NCBI GenBank assembly: GCA_038373865.1
Contig: JAXGGA010004494.1
Coordinates: 23,736 to 87,735, forward strand
From: Uloborus plumipes
Taxonomy: Eukaryota; Arthropoda; Arachnida; Araneae; Uloboridae
Direction of reading: 5' to 3'
Length of the DNA stretch: 64,000 nt
The number at the start of each line of letters is the position of its first letter. Within the stretch, counting starts at the first letter, position 1. Shown piece after piece: positions 11,727 to 47,310 of this stretch. The notes below the pieces were generated by a model. The model was not told where the DNA came from, ran no database searches, and saw nothing but the letters and a program-made list of their open reading frames with translations. Made by a program: the position numbers and the translations under genes.

Positions 11727-11884
11727 AATTCAAGTGAAATATGGACGATTGCAACTCACCAATACAATCGCAAATTCCCAAATTTGTGGATTCAAGTGAA
11801 ACGAATTCACTTGAATTCGACTTACAGTAGCGATTGCAATATGCGATCGCCTCGAAGCGATTGCAATGGTGTTTCACTTGAATT
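11727..11884. mobile_element. Small inverted-repeat element built from two repeated words
   Basis: The outer ends AATTCAAGTGAAA (11727) and TTTCACTTGAATT (11872) are inverted. The same word occurs twice more inside as a close inverted pair (11790-11800 and 11806-11816). A second word, CGATTGCAA, occurs at about 11745, 11831 and 11859, with a variant on the other strand near 11764. The outer arms therefore pair as [word 1 - word 2] with [word 2 - word 1]. Non-coding, about 158 bp; no target duplication was identified. Confidence 0.6.
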
Positions 11885-18914: not shown

Positions 18915-18918
18915 TTAT

Positions 18919-20554
18919 GGGCCATTCCATGAAAAGTGAAACCAATTGGTCATTTGAAGTTATTTGCTATGTTATACATCATTTTAAAGCTTAAGATGTA
19001 TATTTTAAGAATCCTGCATTGGTTTTTTGGTGAGAGTTAGAATAATACTTGTTTTCTTAGTTGGAAGTGCGATATTCACGAACTTGTAAAAATCAGAAAA
19101 AAGAACACATTTTCAAATGCATATTTCTCATCGAAAAATAAAAACAAAAATAACTACTTGTAGCACAATTTTAACTACTAAGACGGTACTATAATAATAT
19201 GCATTCATTAATTTCTTTTGAATTGATCTAAATGGTGTAATTGAAGTTTGAAAAAAAGAAGTTTGATGTTACGTCTGTAACAAAAAAGAAGCAAAAGTTG
19301 TCATTACGTCCTAAAAAATCAAAATAAAAAAAAAACCTTAATGGTCCTTTTGGCAAATTCTTAGAGTAATTGCCTACCATAGTTAAAAATATTGCAACTG
19401 ATTTAGTTTTTAAATTAATGCTGTTACAGACGTAACATTTCGGACATAACAAATGGCTCTATGTTACGTCCGTAGCAAAAGTAAATTTTCAATTAAATAG
19501 GTAAAAAGCACAGGATGAGCAATACATGTATATAGCATAATATGGTACGAGTACTAAAGTTTCTGGTATTCTGATTTTGAAATTTTTAATTATGTCGGCA
19601 TGTAATTGAAATTTATTTGCGAAAATGCCGTTCGAATATCGAAAACGTCGGACGAAAAAAGACACAATTTTTCATTCAAAAAAAAAAAAAAAAATCAAAA
19701 TTGACCAACTGTCACCAAGAAGGTTAAATTTTAGTTTGTACTAGTATTCTGCTATATCATCCAACATTTTCAAATTTTTAAGTTCTCCTAAGACCAATCA
19801 CTGATTCCAGGGAGGAATTTACTTTTCCCGATTTTTTTATGTAGCAGCCCCATTATGCATTAATTTTAAGAATACAAATAAATAAATTTGTGTGAAGGCC
19901 CTTCTAAACTTTTGTTGTGTCAATCTTTCTTGGAAATAATTGTCTTAAGATGCATTAATTTATTGTTACATATTGATATATCGGCATATGCTCTCAACTC
20001 CCCCAGACTTACCCAAATTTTCTAAAACTGTTACAGTATAACTTAAAATATTCAAATAATGTGTTAATTAATGCTACTGTATTGTTTGAGCACAAAAATC
20101 TTTGTTTATTCTTGCTTTAAAATACTGTTTCCTACTTCCAAATCAGAGATGTTACGTCTGTAACACCACTTTGTTTCGTCCGTAACAAGTTTATGAATTT
20201 TTTTCACAAATTCGGCAGTCAAAATCCACACAATCTTTATGGTTTTAGAAAGCTTGAAGTCTCTAGAACACGTATTTTTAAAAAAAAAGTTCAAAATTTC
20301 CGTATAATTTAGAGGAATATTGTAAGTTGTATGACATAGTCGAGTTTTTGCTGTTTTGTGAATTACGTCTGTAACAGGCAGTTTTTAATTTCTGTATTTT
20401 TTTGTAATTAAGCAATCTGCACGCAAATTTAATGTAGCACAAACATCATCAAGTTACACTACAGGAAAAAAAATTGAAGACTTTCATCAGCCCAAACCAG
20501 AATTATTTGTGTTCAAAGTCTGCGATTGTTACGTCTGTAACGATGGAATTGCCC
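18919..20554 (-). mobile_element. Keyword element A (4-bp target duplication TTAT)
   Basis: Inverted ends GGGCCATTCCAT (left) and ATGGAATTGCCC (right) are flanked by perfect TTAT (18915-18918, 20555-20558). The near-palindromic word GTTACGTCTGTAAC occurs exactly at 19268, 20151 and 20528 and as its reverse complement at 19423, with variants at 19463, 20173 and 20362. Measured from the right end, words lie 13, 179, 368 and 390 bp in; from the left end, 349 and 504 bp in. This matches elements B and C read in the other direction, so A is inverted. No convincing coding sequence remains. The superfamily is unassigned: known groups with 4-bp duplications include Sola, Chapaev, Ginger and Academ. 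Confidence 0.85.
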
Positions 20555-20558
20555 TTAT

Positions 20559-21321
20559 CGGAAGCATAGAAGTTTGGTAACTTATAGAAAGCACATTTTC
20601 GATGAATTTTTTTTCGGCAAGTTTGTTCATCAACATGATCTTAATGTATTATTGCTCTAAAATTTTATAAATTTTAGCCCTTTTTTTTTTAATTTTCTAT
20701 ATTTTTTTTATTAACCTCCGTGAAAATGAACAAAAACAGAAATTTTTGAGAATTTTTATTTACCACAATTGTAAGAGAAGGGAAAAATATTTTTCTATCA
20801 AAAAATAAAATCCACTTTTAGTTATATATAGACTTTTTTAATAATTAAAAGCAAAAATGTTTTTGAAAACAATTTTTTTAATTTATGGCGCTTAAAAGGT
20901 AACAATTACTTCTATAGTCCACGTGAGAAATTTCCGACAAATAACCAAGCTGGCTTCTATTTCGGAGACACATTTCGCCTATAAATCGCGTAATGATGTT
21001 GATTAGGCGATTTCTTCTTCTATGCTCCAAGAACCAAACTTTTATGTTCCTGAAGTTTGTGATATTTTGAACCAAATCGAAATTTCCTAATTTACACCGA
21101 TATTGCAGTATTTTCAACTGAGATCATAAATAGAACTGACGAGTCAGTTTTCAGCGAGTGCTTCGTTCTGTGCTGTTTAAGCTGTGATTTTGTTTCAGTA
21201 TTTTATGTGCATTTCGGAGTTATTTTATGCTTACAATTGAAGATCTTGGGAGATGAACGGGTTAGGTGACAAAACAGAAATTGAGAGTAATTAAAGTTCA
21301 AAGTTTTACTGTTGCAATTGT
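20559..21321. other. Spacer with a 79-codon minus-strand frame
   Basis: The frame at 20878-21117 (minus) begins with ATG, sits in less AT-biased sequence and is rich in R, N and I. No domain is recognised. The sequence just upstream of its start (21120-21240) is also GC-richer, so a small gene or exon is possible but unsupported. The rest is AT-rich. Confidence 0.3.
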
Positions 21322-21956
21322 TACAGGGTCATTCTCCGGTTACGCACGGGACATTTGCAGACTTTTGAAGTTCATAAAATCAGTGGAAAAGGTTGTGCAT
21401 TCATGTTTTATTGCAGTTTTATTATAAATCAAGCTTGATTCTTGAAGTTTAAGTGCAAAATAAAATTATAATTGTTGTTTAAATATGTAGAAAATGATTG
21501 ATTATGCTGGTTACGCACGGGACTCGGAAAGAAAAGAAAATTCCACTTTTACTTCTATAGCTCATGAACCCTGTGAATTTAGAACTTCTATCTAACCATT
21601 GTATTTTTTTCCTAACAGCTAAATAGTGCTTCTTCCCAAAAATGCTACACTTTAATCAAATAAATAAATTAGTAAATTTACAAAATTATTGCATTTGGGT
21701 TACGCACGGGACAAACCCAAGGTTACGCACGGGACACGTCTGAATGATATTCTATATCAGCTGGAATAATTCAAAAATATTTATAATAATTGTATTTCTA
21801 ATGAAATAAAAGTTATTGTATTCATTAGCGTGAACCATTTTAAGTGAAGTTCAAGAAAAAAAGAAGGTATTTTGCATAATTAATGTTTTTTTAAATGTGA
21901 CTAGTACACGATTCATAATATTTATTATTGACTTCATAATTATAAAATGTTTTTAG

Positions 21957-22277
21957 CAAGTGAGTGGCAATTGGGGGCAAAGTAAAATCAGAAGGGCAGT
22001 AATGTCCAAAAAATCAAATGCCCCAATTGTGCAGTCGGCCGAAGACTTTGCGAGCGTTGTAAAAAAAGGAATGACATCAACAAAAGTCATGCTGTGTTTA
22101 GATAAAGACATAAAGAGGGAGACAGTTTGGTCAAAAGCAAATGCAAGACCAGGCATTTCAAAGATGCATGGCATGAAGCATACACTTATTTCAGGCTTTG
22201 AGTTCTTTCTAAATGCTGTAACACCTGTAAATAATGTTCAGAGAAAGGCAGTTAGTAGTGTAAATATTGGCATGTGA
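21957..22277 (+). pseudogene. Exon-like coding relic inside element B
   Basis: An open frame of 107 codons starts directly after an acceptor-like TGTTTTTAG and ends at TGA. Its first codons are Q-V-S-G-N-W-G-Q. It is lysine/serine-rich and less AT-biased than its surroundings, and contains W-S-K-A-N-A-R-P-G-I-S-K-M-H-G-M. There is no ATG near the 5' edge, so it fits a last exon. It lies between keyword 4 and keyword 5 of B, about 38 bp before keyword 5 once the inserted MITE is removed. The likely role is the C-terminal part of the element's own transposase or DNA-binding protein; this rests on location only, and I do not recognise the family. Confidence 0.45.
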
Positions 22278-22309
22278 AATTACGTAGCTGAATTATAATT
22301 TTAGAAATA

Positions 22310-22653
22310 CAGCAAATTCTCGATTATCCGCGGTCGTATTATGAGCGATTCGAATTATCCGCGGGCTTTTAACACTTTTATTTCCTTTTCCCTTTTATTT
22401 TCATGGCGAAAATTTACTTAACACAGAAAAATGCAAATTTGTCATTTATCGTTTTTAGCTTTTAAAGATATTTCTTTCATCCAATGTTCTCATTTTTAGT
22501 TTAATTTAAATGTATGAGTGGTACTTTTGACTTTTTTAAAAAGCTTTTACATACACTAGTGTCGTTCTTTACCTATTTTTTGGATTATCCGTCGCATTTG
22601 CTTATCCGCGGTTGCTGTGCCTCCTTACTCCGCGGAAAATCCGGAGTGGACTG
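22310..22653. mobile_element. Tigger/pogo-like MITE inside element B
   Basis: The 344-bp element has imperfect inverted ends CAGCAAATTCTCGATTATCC and, read inward from the right, CAGTCCACTCCGGATTTTCC; both continue into GCGG. TA flanks it (22308-22309 and 22654-22655). CCGCGG and ATTATCCG words repeat near both ends. Ends of the type CAGT(C)NANNCTCGATTATCCG with TA duplications are typical of pogo/Tigger elements. It interrupts B between the coding relic and keyword 5, so it is younger than B. Confidence 0.75.
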
Positions 22654-23207
22654 TATTTGGGTTACGCACGGGACAGGAAAGCAAATGCTTATATTTCAGT
22701 TAATATTTAACTTTCATTAAAAAGGGTTTTGGGCATAAATTTTGATAGGTGAATAAAAGTAAATCCAAAGCAGCTTCTGTTTTGCTCGAAAATTAAGCTT
22801 GGAAAACAAAAAAGGCCATGTTTTTGGGTTACGCACGGGACATCCAATTATTGTTTTAAAAAATCCTTCTTTTTTAAAAAAAAAATATGTTGATACTTAT
22901 TTATTTTCCTTCGATCATTAAAAGATACAATATGTAGATATATTTAACTGCGAAAGAAAATTAAGTGTTATAATTTATTTCAAATTAGACAATAACATTA
23001 AAATATGTTAATTTTAAGGAGAAAATTGAAAAAACGTAATGCTGAATTTCCAGAATTGATTTTAAAATAAAAATTCTGTTAAAACAAGTGTTTTATCTTA
23101 TTTCCTAACGTTCAACTAACATATTTTAATATTACATACATAAAAAACACAAATACGTATTTTAAAAATTGAGGTTCAGAAGGTTTACAGTGGAGAATGG
23201 CCCTACA

Positions 23208-23516
23208 GCTTTTTTGGTTTCTGGTTTTCTCGTTAATGTGCGTATGAAATGGGTCTAATGACATCTACTTTTTGATGTACCAAGTTTTGTTTGCTTACCT
23301 GTATGCACTGCTTACCATTGTCCAGAGTGTTTATTTTTCAAAATGAAACATAGCCTCTTCATCCTCCAAACCCTTCAATTGTGAGTATGGTCTTTCTATG
23401 AGACTTGTATAATTACCAGATAATTTAACGAGTGTAAAGACTTTTTTGTAAATGCTAAAAAAAAATTTCTGCGTTTTTATAAGAACTAAGTGATTGTCCA
23501 AACATATCTGAAGTAT
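23208..23516. other. Spacer between elements B and C
   Basis: Unique sequence without a gene or repeat signal. It separates the two related insertions by only about 310 bp. Confidence 0.5.
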
Positions 23517-24057
23517 ATAGGGGCAATTCCACGTGACTTACGTTACAATTTGACGTGATTTTACAAAAGTAAATGTTATATATATTAAAGAAATACCATG
23601 CCTGATTTAAATAAAGCTGTTGACAGTCATCTGGTATGCAGTGAGAATCTGTGGATGTCAACATTTTAAATTTCAACAGAAATAGATGGTGTTTCAACCT
23701 AAATTTAACATCGTGACTCACGTTACAAAAAAAAGGAACTCAAGTTTTTTGGATAATTAAAAACCTAAGATTCCTGCTCTTTCAGAATAATACAATTTAA
23801 AAACTGCTTTTCATGGCACAAAATATGTTTCTAAGTTATGATATATACGAAAATAAAGTTCATTCTGCAGTCACTAATTAAGTTAATCAATATTTTGAGT
23901 GTGACTCACGTTACATAGTTTCGTGACTCACGTTACATCTCCGTTTTAGTCCTTTACTTTACATCTTATTTTGAAAATTTTGTGTAGAGATTTCACCTAA
24001 ATTCAATTAAAATTAATGCTTAATGGCTTGTTTTCTTTAGTTGATCAGTTTTAAATA

Positions 24058-24205
24058 CAGTAAAACCTCTCCGAGCGGTCACTTTTACAAAGCGGCCACC
24101 CCTCTTAACGGCCAATTTTTCGCAGCACGAATTTTTTGTCCCATAGGCCTATGGTTAAAATTCTCCTTAGCAGCTGCCATCTAACTCCTCTGAACGGTCA
24201 CAGAG
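24058..24205 (+). mobile_element. Tigger/pogo-like left end inside element C
   Basis: After a TA, the sequence starts CAGTAAAACCTCTCCGAGCG, followed by repeated GCGGCCA, ACGGCCA and GAACGGTCAC words, typical of Tigger/pogo ends. No matching right end was found before 25351, so the copy is truncated or its other end has decayed; the right boundary is approximate. Confidence 0.55.
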
Positions 24206-25630
24206 TGGATTCATCACATCAATTTTCCAAAACATGTGTTTGTCTTTTTTTATACTACTTCCCATATTTCCTCTGTGGCTGCATTGTACTGATTTCAAAT
24301 TTTCAATTCATACATCTGGAAACTTTTACAGGATACTACACACCATTACATTTCATCTGATACCAATCATAACATTTAATGTTGCATAATGGCTGTAAAA
24401 TTAGTTGACTGCCTGTCAGAAATAGGCTCTTCAAAGTACTTACTTTTCTCATCCACTACTGATGAATAATTAAATTTTAAGCATATCAAAAGAGAACAAG
24501 TGAGATGTTGACCTTGCTTTTTAAAATTTCTCTTATGTTCCAATTTTATATGTATAAAAAAAAATTCTCTCGCTCAAGCTAATTTTTTAAATCATTTTTG
24601 TTTAGATTTTCTTGGGATAAATAATTTTTTCAGCATGAGTTCGGTGGACATTGAAATCTTCTTTTCAAATGTATATTACATTTACGGATGAGTATCGAGT
24701 AACTCACTTATGACTACAGTTTAACTGTGAGGTGAATTAACGGAATTTCTCCTTGTTTTGGCGAGTCTTCCTTGGTGTATTTACATATTTGTATACTTGT
24801 TGAAGCGGTATTTAAGAAGTTTGAATTTAGCCAAAATGTCCTCTGAAAGTTTCATATGTTTATTTTTCAGCTTATATTGAATTGCTAGAGACAATATCCT
24901 TAGCTTTTCGACTTTTCTCGTTAGACATTCTTTCATCCAAAGACAATGTTTCCGTTTACATGCAATGTACTTACTTCCCTTCTTGCTTCAATTTTTCTCG
25001 GCACCTTTTCTGTCATTCTGCAGTTACTCGTTAAATATTTTAAAAAATTCTTTTACTGGAATGAAAAACCTTTTTTAGATACGGAAGAAAGATACGTGCA
25101 TGCATAAACGCATGCTACACATTGGAAAGCTGAGGGCCAAAACAGGGACCCAGTGCACTAATTGAAAGATTATAAAACACTAAAAGAATTAAAATTACGC
25201 TATTTATATTTAATTTCATCAGTATTATTAATTATATATAGGTGTGTACAAGTGCTAACCCTCTTTTTAGACCCTAAAATACCATTAGGGCACATTAAAT
25301 ACTTTTAAGAAGTTAATATTAGCTTGTATTGGCTGTAACTCACTTTTCGCGTGACTCACGTTACAAAATAAACATCCTTATTTTTTGAATAAAAAAGCAA
25401 AAAACTCTAAATTGGCCAATAAATTCTTTTTTGTAATGTACATGAGTAGGAGAAACAGGAAAAAAATTCAGTTATAAGCTATAAAATTTGGAAATATTAA
25501 AAAAATTAAGTTTTCGTGACTCACGTTACAAAAAATTTAATGGTTTAAAAACTACTTTAAAAAATTATTTTAAGAATAAATTTCAAAATGTACTATTAAT
25601 AATTGTTTTCTTATCGAATAAATCTGCCAG

Positions 25631-25794
25631 GAAAAAATGCAATTAAATTGTGGAAACAGGCTGAACCAATAAAATATGCTCGTTTAAAATTGTGTCTAGC
25701 AGAGAGAGACTTTTACAAGATTGTGAGCTCATATAACAAGTTCTCTTACAAAAAGAAAATGATTCACCTGAAGTTACCTTATTCTAATTTGTAA
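25631..25794 (+). pseudogene. Possible exon relic near the right end of element C
   Basis: An open frame following an acceptor-like TCTGCCAG runs to TAA at 25792-25794. The translation is lysine-rich with L-W-K-Q-A-E, C-L-A-E-R-D-F-Y and F-S-Y-K-K-K-M motifs and has better codon balance than the neighbouring DNA. It ends 97 bp before the end of element C. It is not clearly homologous to the relic in B and lies elsewhere relative to the keywords. It may be a transposase tail or a chance frame. Confidence 0.25.
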
Positions 25795-25895
25795 ACTTCA
25801 ATCAATATAGAGAACGTACAAAAAAAATTAAGACAATTTTTCAACATTTTTTTTTTTTAACACCGAGTTCCCATGTTGCCTGGAATTGCCCATAG

Positions 25896-26619
25896 CGCGA
25901 ACACCCATTTTGCGAACTCTTAAAAATATGTACCTAAAATCTTCACGTTTTCACTACAGTTAAGTTTTTTTTTTTTTTTTTTTCAAATATTCAAAAGTCA
26001 CTGGATTCGTAGTAAATAAAAGTAGTAAACCGACGTAACTCATTTGAAAGACATCAAAATATAAATTATAAACAGAAATTCAATGATGCTCAAAGACATT
26101 GCAGCATTTCGAACTTTACTAAAGCTGATAGAAATGAGTACTTACAACTCTTGACTTCCAGTTTTCCCTTCAAATACTCAGAGTACCCCTGGTAGTAAAT
26201 ATTTCTAACTTTATTGAAGACATCTTCAGCCTTTACTCAAACTTATGAAGCACCTAAACCCATTTGCCAATTACTTTTAGAAATGAAACATGTATCGGTG
26301 CTTAAGTTCATGCTAAATTTTAAACGTTTTCCAAGTACAATGTAAGACATTTACCTACTTAAAAGAATAAACTTACAAATAAACTAAACTAATTAGTACA
26401 AGATCACAAACATATGTTTAAAATTATTTAATCAGACATAATAAATGCATTATCTTTCTTAATTGAAATAAATACAGCTGCACCCAGATTTCACGTTTCC
26501 CGTTTCGTACGTTATCCCGCTTTTAACGTCAATTTCAGCTTCCGATCGTCTAATCTCTCTTCAGAACAACGGAGGAATAGAGCTGCTTAAAATTCTTCCA
26601 GAAAAAGCATCAAAGTTTT

Positions 26620-26623
<4 letters not shown>
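25896..26623. other. Spacer, nothing recognised
   Basis: Mostly AT-rich unique sequence. A GC-richer stretch at about 26480-26580 (with TTTCCCGTTTCGTACG and TTATCCCGCTTTTAACG) may be a fragment of a repeat, but no family could be named. Confidence 0.4.

Positions 26624-26653
<30 letters not shown>
26624..26653. repeat. (GT)n microsatellite
   Basis: An uninterrupted TG/GT tract of about 15 units preceded by a T run. Confidence 0.95.
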
Positions 26654-26658
<5 letters not shown>

Positions 26659-26715
26659 CAGCCAAGAAGCAAATTTACAAAATTTGTCATTGTAGAATGT
26701 GCTATAAATGAAATT

Positions 26716-26780
26716 GTATCGAAAAACAAAAATGAAAATTCGACGAAAACTGTAAATTTGTATAAGGGACAAACATATAT
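26716..26780 (-). repeat. Microsatellite-associated repeat motif (copy 2)
   Basis: In reverse complement this reads TTGTCCCTTATACAAATTTA followed by CAGTTTTCGTCGAATTTTCA. It matches 28826-28890 in inverted orientation on the other side of the hAT insertion and lies 60 bp from the (GT)n tract. Confidence 0.6.
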
Positions 26781-26824
26781 ATAAATTTTCATACATCTAT
26801 ATATTTTAAAATGAATGTATGTAT

Positions 26825-28817
26825 TAGGGATGCACCGATAAGCAAATTGGCCGATTACCGATTACCGATTAATCGGCTGATGATAATCGGCCGATTAATC
26901 GGCATAGCCGATTAGTGGTCATGAATAATATTCTTAATGCTACTAATATATAAATCACTTTTTTTTCTTTCACAATTTCGATTTCAAGAATAATTATTAA
27001 TTTATTTTTGAGTGCCTGATTATTTGTCTCTGTTTCTCTCATTTTCATTAAATAATTTCATAAAATTCCTTTGAGCAAGTTTTGCTTATAAACTTACATT
27101 ATGTTAACTAGACATGAAAATTTAAAAAAAAAAAAAAAGTGAGGATGCTGTGGTGAAAAGGCTAATTTAGGAGCATTTTAATGTTTTTTTTTTTTAATTA
27201 TTAGTCGCCACTTAATTCAAGACTTTTACTCTGTGTGAAAATCGTACGGTTACCTAAAAGCACTGCTAAAGGAGAAAAATATCGACGCATGAAAAATGTT
27301 GCCACAGAGTATGTATCTAATGTGTTTATAGATAATTGCATTTATTTACTGGTAACACATTTATTTTCCATTATTTTTGTTAAAGATAGGGGAGAGTGGT
27401 AATGAATGGGCCACTTTTTGGTTTTGAATTTTTGTATTTTTTTTCAACACTTTTTTTTAACTCTAAATTGGTGTTTTAGTTACTTTACTTATCTGGCTAT
27501 CTAAAAAAGTCATAAAAGTTGGATTAGCACCTGTCTATAATGAATTATAAGAGAAAATAAAAATTTTGAAATTTGGCCCATTCAACCCCACCCATGGGGT
27601 TGAATGGGCCATCGAAGGTAATGAATGGGCCACTAAATGAATTCAATGAAAAAATGTGGATTTAATCTTTTATTTGTTGAAAATAACAAAATAAATGTGG
27701 CATTCGACATGATGATACAAAATCATACTGATTTAAAATTATATAAACATCAAAACTGATGCAATTAAAATAAAACTGATGCAGATCAATTGTAGCAGAA
27801 AAATGACTAAATAATGAGATTGTAAGAAATAAATAACGTCAAATATATATTAAAAAAATAACAGATAATACACACTATGATTTAACAAAATTTATATATT
27901 TCAAAAATAATATTAAAAAACACTTTCAAAAACTTCATCTTCATTTTCAAACTTGTCAAAATTATAAAAAAAAATTGTAAAATTTACTAGACATTGGGAA
28001 TAAAAAAATATCTAACTTAAATTACCAAGAAAGAAAATGAAATTGTACTGTGAGGAGTATAATATGAAGGAGGGGGGGGGGGGCTTTTTCAAGCCGCGCA
28101 CTGCGACCAGAGGTCTATTGTACTATAGGAATATAATATAGATCTGCAAATTATATTTAGAAATTGATACAAACCTATTTTGACGACAGTAATCTTAATC
28201 TATCTATGACAGTCAGTTGTGTTTCATATTAATGCAAAAATCCAAAGAAAAGGAAGAAAAACAATATTTAGGTGGCCCATTCATTACCATGACATAGTGG
28301 CCCATTCAGCCCCACCTATACTTTTGGACAACATTTAGGTTTTTTGAGTACATTGAATTTAGATAACATCAAAATACATCTTAAGATTAGTTTATAGATA
28401 TGGAAAGACTAGCTTATACATATGTATGCAGTGAAATACTTGGTACATTTTAGCTAGGAAATGTTTTACTAAAAAGGGAAAAACTTACTTTTCAGTCAAA
28501 TTCTTGACCATGCCACTCTAGTTTGAAAATGGCTCAGCGCAAACGAATGAAAATTGGATGAGTTTAGTAGAACAAATAGCTACATCTATTGGTGGCATCA
28601 GAAAAAAATTCATGCAAATACTTTTTCATATTTTGTTAGTGGCCCATTCATCACCATGGCCCATTCATTACCACTCTCCCCTACACTTAAAAAAGTGTAT
28701 TTAAGAAAATATTTTTTTCACCGATTAATCGGCCCAATTTTGCCGATTATAAATAATCGGCAAAGCGGCCGATTATGGCCGATCAATCGGTACTACCGAT
28801 TAATCGGTGCATCCCTA
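26825..28817. mobile_element. hAT-type non-autonomous element E (8-bp duplication GTATGTAT)
   Basis: Ends TAGGGATGCACCGAT and ATCGGTGCATCCCTA are flanked by the perfect 8-bp duplication GTATGTAT (26817-26824, 28818-28825). Both subterminal regions (about 26852-26920 and 28720-28808) are packed with CCGATTA / TAATCGG words on both strands, as expected for hAT transposase-binding sites. The TAGGGATGCACCGAT end is a familiar hAT end. There is no transposase. Most of the interior is the later insertion D; without D the element is about 0.7 kb. Confidence 0.9.
27389..28681 (-). mobile_element. Keyword element D, nested in hAT element E
   Basis: Inverted ends GGGGAGAGTGG and CCACTCTCCCC are flanked by TA on both sides; a 4-bp duplication is not intact (GATA versus TACA). 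The word GTAATGAATGGGCC, or its complement, occurs at 27399, 27618, 28274 and 28658. GGGGTTGAATGGGCC-type variants lie at 27575, 27596 and 28299, and another variant at 28641. From the right end the words lie 10, 27, 368 and 394 bp in, matching the offsets of A-C apart from the missing ~180 site. Unlike B and C, words in the two halves mostly point in opposite directions. Non-coding, 1293 bp, in an otherwise AT-rich interior. Confidence 0.8.
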
Positions 28818-28983: not shown

Positions 28984-29888
<905 letters not shown>

Positions 29889-31871: not shown

Positions 31872-33299
31872 CACTGGCGGGAAAAAAATCCCAACACCAA
31901 GAAAAAATTGCTGTAGAGTAATAAAATTTGGGTAATGCAATTGTCTAGTTAACATGTTTAATTGATTAAATGTACAAGATCACTGGCTAATTTAAGCTCA
32001 AGAAAATGCTGTGCAAATGTGAAATTATGTTAATTTAATAGAGGGTGTAACCTCCAGAATTTTGAAGGCAAGCCTGCAAGCGTGCATGCATTATGTCATA
32101 CAGGTGCCGAATGTCACTTTGTGGTATGGAGTTCCATGCTTGTTGCACTTGCTGTGTCAATACTAGGACTGTCATTGCTGACTGTGAATGATGCTCGAGG
32201 TGCCATCCCATGATATCCCATACGTTATCAATTGGAGACAGACCTGGTGATTTTGCAGGTCATGGTAACATGTCAGCACTCTGTAGAACACATTGCGTTA
32301 CAGCAGCGATGTGAGGGCGAGCGTTATCCGGTTGGAAAACGCGCTCTTGAATGCTACTCATGAAGGGCTGTACTACTGGTTAAATTAACAGACTGACGAC
32401 AAATTTTCAGTCAGTGAGTTTGGGATAACCACAAGAATGCCCCTGCTGTCGTAGGACATTGCTCCAGAGACCATAACTCCAGGTGTGAGTCCCGTGTGTC
32501 TAGGCCGTAGACCGCTTGGATGCAGGCGGTCCCCTGGCCTCCTTCTGACCAATATACAGCCACCACTGGCACTAATTCAGAATCTGTTTTCATCAAAAAT
32601 TACAACAGATCTCCACTCCGACCTCCAGTGAGCTCTGTCGTGGCACCACTGCCGTCGGAAAAGGTAATGGTTTGCAGTCAATGGAATACCGGCTACAGGC
32701 TGCCTGGCTAGGAGCTGTCCTTGAAGTAAACAGTTTCTTACCGTTCCTTGGGTCACGAGGGTACCAACTGCAGCTCGAATGTCAGCCGCAGATGCAGTAC
32801 GATGCGCCACAGCCGTATGCAAGATTCGGCGATCTTCCTTCTCAGTCGTGCCACGTGGCAGCTCGGAACTCGATCTTCTTGAGGTAGTACCATCCCTTGA
32901 CCATAGCTTTCAATAATCATGCATGGTGGAAACATTCCCACCCAAGTTTTTCTGCAATATCGCGAAATGAAAATCCACCTTCTCGTAGCCAAATTGTACG
33001 ACCTCGTTTAAACTCGGTGAGCTGTTGATAATGGCTTCTTCGTCTTCTTAAAAGGTATTCCTGGCTAACATGAACGCAATTCGTCCAATTTCACGGAAAA
33101 ATAATACACACGAGCTTCACAACACGCTTTTAAAACAAGCCTTATTTGCATGTTCTGAGTGACGCCAGCTGCGCCACACTTATGCGCGGAACACGAAATT
33201 TCAATCGATGTCATCTTTCAGTTGTATAAACACGCCTACCAAATTTCGTTTATCTAACACAAGTCTTTCTTGGTGTTGGGATTTTTTTTTCCGCCAGTG
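31872..33299 (-). mobile_element. Full-length dead Tc1-like transposon
   Basis: The 1428-bp element has terminal inverted repeats CACTGGCGGGAAAAAAATCC and, on the right, GGATTTTTTTTCCGCCAGTG (outermost about 30 bp nearly perfect, continuing CAACACCAAG). It is flanked by the TA target duplication (31870-31871, 33300-33301). The interior is GC-richer than the surroundings and encodes a broken Tc1 transposase on the minus strand. Both ends are intact, so it could have been mobilised in trans. Confidence 0.95.
32040..32992 (-). pseudogene. Tc1-type transposase pseudogene
   Basis: The protein would cut and rejoin DNA at the element's TIRs through a DDE/D catalytic triad. Read on the minus strand, the visible pieces in order are: an HTH-like stretch in 32753-32992; a piece in 32577-32822 with T-V-R-N, L-T-A-N-H and Q-W motifs ending F-D-E-N-R-F (first catalytic D); a piece at 32411-32596 with the conserved D-T-R-D-S-H-L-E-L-W region; then P-D-N-A-R-P-H (second catalytic D) and S-P-I-D-N-V-W-D in 32040-32330. 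Several frame changes, plus an in-frame TGA where Trp is expected (L-P-W-P context), make it inactive. The third catalytic position reads D (GAT), not the E usual in Tc1. By eye, 32 residues separate it from the second D. Confidence 0.9.
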
Positions 33300-38027: not shown

Positions 38028-40930
38028 GGGTCATTCCACGTCAAGTGATCCAAAATCTGAGAAAAATTTTACCTTACATTTTTGTATTTCTTTCAAATTT
38101 GGCTCATCAATTGTACCCCTTGAGGTAATTAAAAGTCTCAATTTTTAGATTTTTATCTCTATTATTTTTTTATTTATGAGACTTTGAAAAACCTCGTTTT
38201 TCCATGGATGAGGGAAGATAAAAGGGACCATAACTCAGCACCAAATATAGATAGAACAATGTGGTAAATGGCATTTTAAAGTACGTTAGTTGCCACTTAA
38301 TCTGATATACAACATGACAAATTTGATAAAAATTTTCTTTTTCAAAAAATGAAATTTAAATTTCAAATTTAAATTTCTCGAAAAACATATAATGAATTTT
38401 TTTCAAAAAATTTTCAAAAATTTATGTGTATTTTATCTATGTTTGTACCAATTTTTAGATTGGGATCTCAATGGGATCATATTTTTCTGAATTTTTGAAT
38501 AAAACTGTATAGGAAAAAAATGATATTTTTTAGATTCTATTTATTTAAATACTAAGTTGTCTGGCTTGTGATGGTCTAAAAAGTAGTAAATAAACATGAA
38601 TATGTTTAAAGTGATCTGGCATGAGCTTATATAGATTTGTCAGGTTCATCCCCCCCCCCTCCCTCCTCTGCTCAACCACTCTTTTTTTTTTTTTTTCAAA
38701 ACTGTTTAATATGTTAAAAAAACTCTTTGATACAAAATGAATAGTAAACTTATTTAAAGTTGGTAAATGGGTTCCCTTATAACTAGACGAAGTATTCCCC
38801 TCCCCACTCAAATATACCATTCACACTATACTAATATGACGTCCAACCTCGGGATTGAATTGAGGATTATTCTCACCCTAGGTATATATATTGTTTTTCA
38901 GACGAAGTGTTTCTTTTCGATCCGAACTTCAAAGTGTACTTCCATTCAATATCTGAAATTTAACTTTATGATTCATTTCATGTCCTACCCCAGCACCAAT
39001 CTTCAATTTTGAAGGGAGGAAATAAATGGGTCGCCCCAAGATCATAGCAAACAGCAAAATAGCACTGTTTCTCCTTGTTCTCATTGTTTTTTCTATTCTT
39101 TTCGCACAAAACTGAAAACAAATCAAAATATCACATCATATGTCTGTGCCCGCATAACTATCTTCCCACATTATCTAGTGTGCAGCTGTTATTTAATTTT
39201 TTTAATTGTTTGTGTTCTTTTTCATTTGTTGTAAAGGAAAGTAATGCAGCAAGACATATCTTTTTACACATATTAAACAAACACTGCTTTTTTGATCATA
39301 ACCTCTCATTTTGCTTAACTTCTGTACAGATTGCTCCTCCCCTTTTTCTGCCTCCCCGCTCCAAACTTTTATTTTTTATCATCCCGCCTAACCCCATTTC
39401 AAAGCCTTAGTCTCCACTGATGTCTGATAGTGTTTCAGTTTGTTCTGTTTGTTACTCTTTCCTATTAGCTCATGAGCTTTGTCCAATAAGAGAAAGGAAA
39501 GGCAGTGATGGGGACTGACATATAACCTGATACTTTGATTTCTTTTCAGTTTTGTGTGAAAATAATGGGAAAACATTATGAGAACAAGGGGAAACAGTGC
39601 TATTTTGCTGTTTGCTATGATCTTGGAGCGAACCGTTTCTTTTCTTCCTCCAAAACTGAAGATTGGTGCTGGGAGAGGGGATGAAATGAATCATAAGTTT
39701 AAATTCAGACATTAAATGGAAGTACACTTTGTGAAGGTCGGATTGAAAAAAGACATACTTCGTCTGAAAAACAATATATACCTAGGGGGGAAAAAATCCT
39801 CAAATCAATTCCCAGATGAGACGTCATATTAGCACAGTGTTAATGGTATATTTGGGTGGGGGAAGGGTTGTACTTTGCCTTGTTATAAGGAAACCCATTT
39901 ACCAATTTTAAGTAAGTTTACTGTTCATTTTGTATCAAAAAGGTTTTTTTTTGGCATTTGAAACAGTTCGGGGGGAAAATGGTTGGGTCGGGAAGGAAGG
40001 GAGGGGGAGCTGACCAATTTACAAGTTAATGCTAGCTCACTTACCTAGAGTAAAAATAATAGTCAATTCAATCCCCAGGTTAGATGTCATAATAGTACAG
40101 CGTTAATGGTATATTTGGGTGGAGGAGGGGATACTTCGTCTAGTTATAAGGAAACCCATTTACCAACTTTAAATAAGTTTACTATTCATTTTGTATCAAA
40201 GAGTTTTTTTAAACATTTTGAACAGTTTTGAATTAGAAAAGAGTGGTTGTGCGGAGAGGAAGGGGTGCGGGGGGTGAACCTGACAATTCTATAAGCTCAT
40301 GCCAGCTCACTTTAAACATATTCATGCTTGTTTACTACTTTTTAGACCATCACAAGCAAGATAACTTAGTATTTATATAAATAGAATCTAAAAAATATCT
40401 TTTTTTTCCTATACAGTTTTTTTCAAAAATTCAAAAAAATATGATCCCATTGAGATCCCAATCTAAAAATTGGTGCAAACATAGTTAAAAATTCTTGTGT
40501 ATTTTATGAAAAATATTATTCATAAAATACACAAGAATTTTTAAAAAATTTTTGAAAAAAATTCATTATATGTTTTTCGAGATATTTAAATTTGAAATTT
40601 AAATTTCATTTTTTGAAAAAGAAAATTTTTATCAAATTGATCATGTTGCATATCAAATTAAGCGGCAACTAACGTACTTTAAAATGCCATATACCAAATT
40701 GTTCTATCTATATTTGGTGCAGAGTTATGGTCCCTTTTACGTTCCCTTATCCATGGAAAAACGAGGGTTTTTCCAAAGTTCAAAGTCTCATAAATGAAGA
40801 AATAATAGAGATAAAAATCTAAAAATTGAGACTTTTTATTACCTCAAGGGGTACAATTGATGAGACAAATTTGAAAGAAATACAAAAATGTAAGGTAAAA
40901 AACGTTGGATCACTTGACATGGAATGACCC
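38028..40930. mobile_element. Long-inverted-repeat element F (4-bp duplication GTAT)
   Basis: The 2903-bp element begins GGGTCATTCCACGTCAAGTG and ends with CACTTGACATGGAATGACCC, flanked by perfect GTAT (38024-38027, 40931-40934). Arms of about 1.1 kb (left) and 1.45 kb (right) are imperfect reverse complements around a centre at about 39175-39480. The right arm is longer because a unit of about 263 bp (words GTTAATGGTATATTTGGGTG and TTATAAGGAAACCCATTTAC) is present twice. No transposase is present; open frames of up to 111 codons are arm artefacts. The ends and 4-bp duplication link it to keyword elements A-C. A second copy lies at 61800 in opposite orientation, judged by the centre. Confidence 0.9.
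40487..40542. repeat. 24-bp perfect hairpin inside the right arm of F
   Basis: AAAAATTCTTGTGTATTTTA + TGAA (40487-40510) pairs exactly with 40519-40542 across the 8-base loop AAATATTA. The left arm of F has only one of the two halves at the matching place, so the other half was added in the right arm as an inverted copy. Confidence 0.85.
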
Positions 40931-41770: not shown

Positions 41771-42985
41771 ACTAGCTGTCGTGGCCGTCACGAAACTTTC
41801 TTCTATATCTATCTTATGAATTCCGGTTACAAAATAAAATACGTACTCGCCCGAGTAATTGGAGACAGCTACAATTTCCCAATTATCGTAATAACCCTGC
41901 AAATGCAGAATCAATGAGCGAAATTGGAAATCATTGCAAAAGCCTTGTTTAGATTAATTGCAAACATTTTATTTGTTAGTAAAAAGAAATTGGCAACAGT
42001 TAAAAATTTCAAATCATTGAAAGTTTTCAGCTGTTTTGATAATTAAATAGCGTGAAAGCGATTTTTTAATGAATTAATTTTTCGCATTGTTGACTAAGCG
42101 CAAAAATCACCCCACCCTCCCCCTGGAATGATTGGCGCCAAAATTTAATCGATGCTTGCTTCCATATTGGGTTAGTGTTATTCCAAATTTCATTCAAATC
42201 GCAGCAATATTTCCCGAGATACAGTAGGTGCAATGACAAAATAAGCACTTTTGATTGCTCCACCCCCCTTTGAGATATTGACACACAAATTGAATCAGCA
42301 CCTGTACTCAATAGGGTCTACCTATGGACCAATTTTTGTTTGATTCCGCCGGTTACTTCCTGAGATATAGCAGTCACCCCCGCGCAGAACACGTGCGATT
42401 GCTCCACCCCCTTGGAGATATTGACACACAAATTGAATCAGCACCTGTACTCAATAGGGTCTACCTATGGACCAATTTTCGTTTGATTCCGCCGGTTACT
42501 TCCTGAGATATAGCAATCACCCCCGCGCAGAACACGTGCGATTGCTCCACCCCCCTTGGAGATATTGACAAACAAATTAAATCAGCACCTGTACTCAGTA
42601 GGGTCTACCTATGGACCAATTTTCGTTTGATTCCGCCGGTTACTTCCTGAGATATAGCAATCACCCCCGCGCAGAACACGTGCGATTGCTCCACCCCCCT
42701 TGGAGGAATTCGCTAAAAAAAGTCAGGTGCACCAGTTCACATAGTGGTACATATGTGCAAAAATTTTTGTTCGATTTCATTCAGTAGTTTTTGCTCTAGC
42801 GCGGCCACAAAAACTGGTCACACACATACAGACTCACACACACACACACACACAGACAGACATTTTCCAAAAATTGTCGAAATGGACTCAGCGCACCTCA
42901 AAACGTGCAAATCCGTCAAAATTCGACATTCGAAAATTTTCACGAAACCAATACTTTCTTCTATAAGATATAGAAGAAAGTAAAA
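41771..42985. mobile_element. Interspersed element with TTTCTTCTATAT ends and internal tandem units
   Basis: The left end reads CTAGCTGTCGTGGCCGTCAC, then ACTTTCTTCTATATCTATCT. The right end is a tight palindrome TACTTTCTTCTATA-AGA-TATAGAAGAAAGTA. The left TTTCTTCTATATCT and right AGATATAGAAGAAA form an inverted pair. Inside are tandem units of 143-144 bp, a (CA)n tract at about 42837-42853 and a GC-richer tail. It is non-coding. The terminal hairpin recalls Helitron 3' ends, but no CTRR end or TC start was confirmed, so the class is open. Confidence 0.55.
42253..42700. repeat. Tandem repeat, 143-144-bp period
   Basis: GATTGCTCCACCCCC starts at 42253, 42397, 42540 and 42684, giving periods of 144, 143 and 144. 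Three full units and the start of a fourth are nearly identical. Shared words are GAATCAGCACCTGTACTCA, TACCTATGGACCAATTTT and CGCCGGTTACTTCCTGAGAT. A diverged older unit precedes them at about 42105-42252. The unit is CG-rich compared with the rest of the window. Confidence 0.9.
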
Positions 42986-46995: not shown

Positions 46996-47310
46996 TAAAA
47001 TATAAAAAAAACTTTTAAATTTAAAGACTATTTCTGTCTGCTCATTCGCACCAAAAAGTATGAAACAAACGGTGAAAATGCGCGTTGGGTCCCTGCTTGG
47101 CGCATTTTCAAAAAGTCGCCAATTTTTGCATAATGTCTCTCGGAGCTTTCAATTCGCGAGACAACAAGGAAAAACGCGCCAGTTGGCGACTTTTTGAAAA
47201 TGCGCCAAACAGGGACCCAAAGCGCATTTTCACCGTTTATTTAATACTTTTTGGTGCGAATGAGCACACAGAAATAGTCTTTAAATTTAAAAAGTTTTTT
47301 TTATATTTTA
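46996..47310. mobile_element. 315-bp fold-back element
   Basis: The left arm (46996-47122) and right arm (47183-47310) are imperfect reverse complements of about 127 bp. They share TGGGTCCCTG / CAGGGACCCA, GGCGCATTTTCAAAAAGTCG and CTTTTTGGTGCGAATGAGCA-type words. The loop of about 60 bp has a small inner TCTCG...CGAGA stem. No target duplication was fixed. The 91-codon plus-strand frame across it is an arm artefact. Confidence 0.85.

Follow-up and report, generated by a model that had tools for sequence, protein, structure and literature searches.

A 64-kb window of the genome of the spider Uloborus plumipes (64,000 nucleotides of contig JAXGGA010004494.1; the whole genome is 1.42 Gb) contains three transposons, here called A, B and C, in which short sequences recur at regular places. 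Each element repeats a 14-bp word of its own, and the three words lie at closely matching distances from the element ends. We report that this layout recurs in seven further families of the same genome. In all ten families the words start about 13, 185, 378 and 398 bp from one end, and at the other end one site lies about 360 bp from the terminus, with a further one to three sites clustered at about 505-565 bp. A, B and C are probably non-autonomous members of three families in a Sola-like group of cut-and-paste transposons, with the words as putative sites for each family's own transposase; this reading is drawn from sequence.

The layout is important for what it offers. One genome holds at least ten families, each with its own 14-bp site in a near-constant frame, and eight of them retain at least part of an open transposase frame. 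This is a natural data set on how proteins that bind DNA and their target sites shift specificity jointly, and with it one could test directly if changes of site keep transposon families from mobilising one another. The slots and the word frame together make a usable signature for finding such elements.

The site array in elements A, B and C

Site positions (L) are the number of bases that precede the word from the four-site end, R positions the number that follow it to the other end, and words are given in array orientation with the four-site end at left. Element B (21326..23203, plus strand), which is non-autonomous, is flanked by a perfect 4-bp target site duplication (TSD), TACA (21322-21325 and 23204-23207). 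Its word, GTTACGCACGGGAC, is identical in all six copies and always on the plus strand: L1 at 13 (21339..21352), L2 at 184 (21510..21523), the L3-L4 doublet at 373 and 396, 23 bp apart (21699..21735), R529 (22661..22674) and R362 (22828..22841). Element C (23521..25891, plus strand; TSD ATAG, perfect, at 23517-23520 and 25892-25895), also non-autonomous, carries GTGACTCACGTTAC on the plus strand at 12 with one mismatch (L1, 23533..23546), at 192 (L2, 23713..23726), in a doublet at 380 and 402, 22 bp apart (23901..23936), and at R527 (25351..25364) and R362 (25516..25529).

Element A (18919..20554, minus strand) is likewise non-autonomous, lies between perfect 4-bp copies of TTAT (18915-18918 and 20555-20558), and presents its four-site end first when read from the right. 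The word GTTACAGACGTAAC lies on the minus strand at L1, 13 bp from the end (20528..20541), at L2 (179, one mismatch; 20362..20375), in the doublet (20151..20186) with L3 at 368, bearing two mismatches, and L4 at 390, and at R349 (19268..19281). An inner cluster (19423..19476) holds R544, in the same orientation with two mismatches, and R504, exact and inverted. Since these sites lie at R358-360, R514-516 and R554-556 in six other A copies whose TSDs are perfect, window A has been shortened by about 10 bp near its second end. A site search found the words where the original prediction, made from the letters of the window, had placed them; its list for A had omitted the R544 copy, the inversion of R504 and the mismatches at 368 and 179, and that for C the mismatch at 12.

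How far does this agreement exceed chance? The commonest 12-mer with at least four G+C occurs five or six times in each of A, B, C and a fourth candidate, D (discussed below), against two times at most in the 200 dinucleotide shuffles made of each element. With slot tolerances picked after the data were seen, 0 of 2,000,000 random draws do as well as C, which matches all six B slots to within 8 bp, and 99 of 2,000,000 do as well as A, which matches at least five of them to within 13 bp. A looser positional count gave 0.0022 for A and B, 0.00035 for A and C and 0.00005 for B and C. The words themselves share 9 of 14 columns (GT.AC..ACG..AC), every pair differing at four positions, and are therefore variants of one frame. 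Word C includes TGACTCA, which resembles a bZIP site.

The ends of A, B and C are of the GGGNNATTCY type, and those of A-, B- and C-type elements are asymmetric: one end has four sites and the second end is unlike it. The Repbase rule for a superfamily asks for equal TSD length and at most one mismatch in the first 11 bp (PMC4455052). A and C termini share GGGCAATTCCA. The closest B end differs from the A/C end at two positions (GGGCCATTCTC versus GGGCCATTCCA), and copies of B and A are linked instead by transposase remnants. B and C also contain insertions between L4 and the R sites (22310-22655 in B, about 24060-24200 in C), which alter the total length of the elements and leave the distances to the ends unaffected; by eye, they resemble elements of the pogo/Tigger type.

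The layout across families and copies

Relatives were retrieved by transposase homology, not by word. Element B holds a 106-residue open reading frame (ORF; 21957..22274, plus strand), a remnant of the family transposase with 59 matches in the genome, and it is homologous to a 728-residue ORF at locus L056. When the genome was searched with the protein of L056, there were 2938 first-look candidates, 61 scored and 67 matches, many with open frames of about 600-730 residues. Eight places (L076-L083) were picked by frame length and divergence; L053-L064 were also in the sample. Seven additional families emerged, each with its own word and with perfect 4-bp TSDs at the ends predicted by the layout: L064 (2398 bp, ACGA), L076 (3376 bp, TTAC), L077 (3531 bp, ATAA), L078 (3242 bp, AAAA), L079 (3207 bp, TTTA), L080 (3237 bp, TAAA) and L083 (3221 bp, TCTT). 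All except L064 are near-complete elements of 3207-3531 bp with a single ORF of 586-730 residues.

Test slots were defined from window B and C alone, with a tolerance of 12 bp. Words occupy predicted slots in 45 of 50 cases (L064 7/8, L076 6/6, L077 6/7, L078 7/7, L079 7/7, L080 6/8, L083 6/7), a count somewhat favoured by per-family mismatch limits of one to three set by hand and by ends that were themselves sought with the layout (with a word required at 10-16 bp on one side and at 300-440 bp on the opposite side). In placing the ends, no use was made of the sites at about 185, 378, 398 and 520 bp. Words scattered uniformly over the element would give 2.7, and words scattered uniformly over the flank of about 1150 bp would give 7.2. 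All five misses fall at the second end, in its inner cluster, where the sites vary in number (one to three) and orientation. Across the ten families L1-L2 spans 166-180 bp, L2-L3 184-191 bp and L3-L4 15-23 bp; given the fixed steps of 166-191 bp, tandem amplification was rejected as the source of the words.

The ends of L083 were placed by eye from the flanks, the automatic end-finder having missed them. Four other places were not counted: L082, whose four-site end carries the L076 word and whose second end was not found; L081, where a D copy lies beside an L080-like transposase and a 10-mer scan gave no other array; and L056 and L063, each with a partial array only.

The proposal that a fixed grammar is combined with a family-specific vocabulary is borne out by these homology-found families. 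Its wording needs two corrections. The sites had been described as fixed along the whole element, and in near-complete copies they are confined to two non-coding flanks around one ORF. The words had been called different; each family does have its own, and most keep a common frame, GTNAC-N4-GNNAC, which fits 8 of the 10. Beyond A, B and C the words are GTGACGTGTGTGAC (shared by L056, L063 and L064), GTTACGTGTGTTAC (L076), GTAACTTACGTTAC (L077), GTGACTTACACTAC (L078, identical in all seven copies), GTAACAGAGGGGAC (L079), GTCATGTATGTGAC (L080, varying from site to site) and GTTACAGAGGGGAC (L083, with A as first letter at several sites). The exceptions to the frame are L078, with A at position 10, and L080, mostly without C at position 5.

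Within families the layout holds from copy to copy. Word A has 4223 exact copies in the genome versus 15 for its reversed control, and word C 2589 versus 3; the first 100 places listed for word C show recurrent spacings of 180, 188-190, 22 and 165-167 bp. Of 30 loci with the B ORF, 19, the window copy included, pass a filter that favours intact copies (ends with at most one mismatch, perfect TSD, at least five words, the first at 13), and the other 11 yield no such element. All 113 words in these 19 elements lie within 6 bp of their positions in window B. One long B copy, L062, has lost L4. Ten A loci were fetched by place and seven yielded an element (L065 with one TSD mismatch; L067, L069 and L070 gave none); all seven are laid out like A and have an inverted R514-516 site, and L072 and L075 lack a recognisable L3.

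Further places are worth recording. Six (C1781, C7686, C8277, C10179, C12039 and C23072) have equal match scores and a 730-residue open frame each, and are perhaps a recently active family. Two loci (L060:5661-6601, L061:1065-1989) hold an element of 925-941 bp that has GGGCGATTCT ends and is flanked by 4-bp TSDs; an unrelated word, ACAGTCCCCTG (zero to two mismatches), lies at 181, 380, 569, 707 and 720 bp in L061, in steps of mostly about 190 bp, and is possibly a further vocabulary of the same grammar. The same locus (L061:3924-4319) has five copies of GTAACGGACTTGAC, two with one mismatch, spaced 19, 16, 155 and 192 bp and apparently within a B copy; this is probably another family.

The transposase and the role of the words

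What protein might read the words? Transposase identity across eight aligned families is 26-46%. Invariant in all eight are D383, D466-G467 and H501-GKG-x2-D507-G508-x-GG, and from these we infer that D383, D466 and D507 would form a DDD catalytic core. The alignment also keeps cysteines that could bind zinc, and the N-terminal part seems rich in K and R by eye. A piece 26-31% identical to the L056-type protein is carried by A copies L018-L025, L066, L069-L071 and L073 (with overlap among several of these loci); elements A and C of the window yielded no such piece. Three sets of matches were rejected: a sub-threshold match of the B ORF to C1q (E 0.12), matches of the same ORF to PDB entries over 22 residues (best E 0.0082), taken as chance, and Pfam matches below threshold for L077 and L079 (E 0.035-0.36), also taken as chance.

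In all six near-complete elements no second stop-to-stop ORF longer than 71 residues lies outside the main frame, introns not being considered (for L080 the listing shows one stop in the frame). In the simplest case, an element-encoded binder would therefore be the transposase. The stop of the gene faces the four-site end in all six; in family B (L057) the gene points the opposite way and the array is unchanged, which speaks against a promoter role.

We propose that a group defined by 4-bp duplications, short GGNNNATTCC-type ends and one transposase of about 700 residues with three invariant aspartates would work as follows. Each word would be bound by its own family's transposase, and the fixed spacing would determine how a complex of several subunits is arranged when it brings the two unlike ends together ahead of cutting. 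Common descent and constraint may together have preserved the spacing, as the word diverged jointly with the DNA-binding surface of the protein. Private words could then insulate co-resident families, so that they would not mobilise each other's copies. A bolder version, which we advance tentatively and rather doubt, is that the six- to eight-site array, locked to a few bp (L2-L3 184-191) while the word is rewritten in each family within GTNAC-N4-GNNAC, is an address code that keeps families orthogonal, read by a multi-domain transposase complex and perhaps registered on nucleosomes.

The original prediction held that site sequence had changed along with the protein. Word difference does track transposase divergence, and it does so weakly: r = -0.43 over eight families, with 347 of 20,000 permutations as extreme, taking the distance between two words as the better of the two strands. 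The smallest word distances, 1 (L079/L083) and 2 (L056/L076), go with 46% and 43% protein identity.

Several observations weigh against binding by the transposase. Other pairs at 43-46% protein identity differ at three to five word positions, and B, the clearest exception to the tracking, shares 44-46% identity with three families, although its word departs from each of theirs at 4-5 of 14 positions. No region of the protein stands out as a specificity determinant (correlations -0.72, -0.85, -0.64 and -0.52 over six families). Neither Pfam nor PDB gives the protein a name: Pfam gave nothing above cut-offs for the six long ORFs scanned, L056 among the queries, and PDB no match for the L056 protein. 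At the second end the nearest site is about 360 bp in, far for a transposase unless the terminal repeat also binds. The words are uneven in A, L077, L080 and L083, where copies have one or two mismatches, and one long B copy, L058, lacks L2 and has its doublet at 329 and 352. Finally, element E of the window (38028..40930; ends of the GGGTCATTCC / GGGTCATTCCAYGTCAAGTGATCC type, TSD GTAT), which shares end type and 4-bp TSD with A-C and has a different architecture, with long inverted arms of the foldback type, has no word array, its terminal 12-mer occurring only at its two ends with up to two mismatches.

Could some other protein use the words? They may be recognised by a protein other than the transposase, encoded by the element and acting in anti-silencing or regulation, comparable to VANC, which recognises motifs specific to a VANDAL family and strips DNA methylation from the element (PMC5735166). 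The pattern of motifs changing with the protein among related elements is the same there (PMC5735166), and the words do sit in non-coding flanks. We nonetheless consider such a protein unlikely: the six near-complete elements have no second frame above 71 residues outside the main one, with the proviso on introns given above, and VANDAL motifs are often tandem according to the same source, whereas here single or paired sites stand at fixed distances. Host transcription factors acting on promoter or enhancer elements of the transposase gene would account for a gene flanked by sites, and for the bZIP-like sequence in word C. A private word for each family is not what one would expect of host factors, and the array is retained in non-autonomous copies and stays unchanged where the B gene is reversed; a host role is accordingly hard to credit.

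Two further explanations concern the spacing alone. Chromatin may set the register, sites about one nucleosome apart being jointly exposed in linker DNA; this would add to transposase binding, not replace it. The L1-L2 and L2-L3 distances in the ten families have the appropriate size, but neither the doublet (15-23 bp) nor the second end keeps strictly to one period, and in Sleeping Beauty, too, each end has two separate sites (PMC7827188). We give this addition little weight. The shared positions might instead be merely inherited from a common ancestor without constraint. Immediately inside L1, A and B still match over a 9-mer, and in three closer family pairs five of six spacers beat reversed controls, all six showing 58-68% identity over aligned columns, so that some common spacer ancestry is still visible. 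Against inheritance alone, the spacers of A, B and C are at reversed-control level in five of six comparisons (a shuffle test gave some low p values for them, probably from low-complexity A/T runs, and was set aside), and L2-L3 varies by just 7 bp over ten families despite the divergence of their transposases. We regard descent without constraint as highly improbable, and prefer transposase binding under constraint on spacing.

Neighbouring features and known systems

Element D (27389..28681) had been put forward as a fourth member. It has symmetric GGGGAGAGTGG ends and the flanks ATA/TAC (TA, not 4 bp), in place of the 4-bp TSD and GGNNNATTCC ends of the group. Eight words with the core TGAATGGGCC lie in both orientations at 10, 27, 369, 394, R229, R208, R186 and R10. 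Three of the eight fall in B or C slots, which random placement equals in 95,561 or 96,714 of 2,000,000 draws (about 4.8%); the looser test gave 0.107 versus B, 0.045 versus C and 0.0064 versus A, uncorrected for 12 comparisons. Of the 9 columns that A-C have in common its word retains 6, a result matched by 359 of 20,000 shuffles. With positional evidence so mixed, membership is not demonstrated and D is left outside the group. D is nested in an element bearing CCGATTAATCGG palindromes at both ends (about 26830-28815), and its word reversed, GGCCCATTCATTAC, resembles the GGCCCATTCC end of L080.

A scan of the window for 11-mers repeated at least four times within 3 kb recovered A-D. It also gave a microsatellite at 29813, the palindromes of the element surrounding D, and clusters at 11728, 42253 and 47073. 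Four similar tandem units of about 143-144 bp each make up 42253-42700, and 47073-47232 is an inverted repeat in which GCGCATTTTCA or its complement is present four times. A Tc1-like transposase remnant lies at 32577-32909 (Pfam HTH_Tnp_Tc3_2, E 1.2e-8).

Among viral contigs, a degenerate doublet was found in four stretches, an end with a word in one, and E ends and D ends in none; of eight pattern matches to the B ORF none was confirmed. Bacterial and archaeal contigs gave 12 stretches with an end and a word, all 12 with a single word and no array. L001 and L002 (one word in three close copies), L003 (three words that differ), L004 (an isolated doublet in a GC-rich contig) and L005 (one word) hold no array of this type, and all 17 stretches were dropped as chance or unrelated.

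How does the group compare with known transposons? We file it as Sola-like rather than Sola2, the comparison with Sola proteins being by description only, because Sola2 termini are GRG, whereas L078 and L080 begin GGC and L079 has GGT and GTG. Sola elements are 2-9 kb long with highly variable ends (PMC10741241), and Sola2 has terminal inverted repeats (TIRs) of 12-21 bp and AT-rich 4-bp TSDs (PMC3627910). The available parts of these descriptions mention no fixed site array (PMC10741241, PMC3627910), a difference from the group. By TSD and short TIR, Sola2 is the nearest Sola subgroup. The likeness to Sola as a whole, whose transposase is of the DDD type, lies in the 4-bp TSDs, the size of 3207-3531 bp, the variable short ends and the aspartate trio.

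Arrays of sites are found in other transposons as well. Subterminal repeats occur in hAT elements (Hermes, Ac/Ds), whose TSD is 8 bp, unlike the 4 bp seen here. Tn7-like ends have several TnsB sites each, and those systems are bacterial and multi-protein. Asymmetric ends, as in the group, are described for Tn7-like and CRISPR-associated transposons (PMC13370975), and several subunits of the multimeric Hermes transposase contact one end (PMC10368747, PMC3260210). Sleeping Beauty, like the group, has several separated sites per end: two transposase sites at each, with all four needed and an ordered assembly with HMGB1 (PMC7827188). Together with other Tc1-like elements of the inverted repeat/direct repeat type it differs in its TA target, TIRs of about 220 bp and number of sites per end.

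It had been supposed that no known family has sites whose sequence switches between relatives. VANDAL elements of Arabidopsis are such a case: related elements have differing short motifs, often in tandem repeats, that change with the binding protein VANC, which is separate from the transposase VANA (PMC5735166). The group likewise has element-specific motifs among relatives, and differs in having no separate anti-silencing ORF above the length limit already given. A fixed-slot layout was not encountered in the literature searched, which had few subscription papers and neither the founding Sola paper nor Repbase Reports, and this is weak evidence; words A, B and C appear in no paper among the matches listed for the ends and words as letters. 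Site arrays, and element-specific motifs as in VANDAL/VANC (PMC5735166), are thus already known. What is new is that the layout stays constant across transposases that are 26-46% identical.

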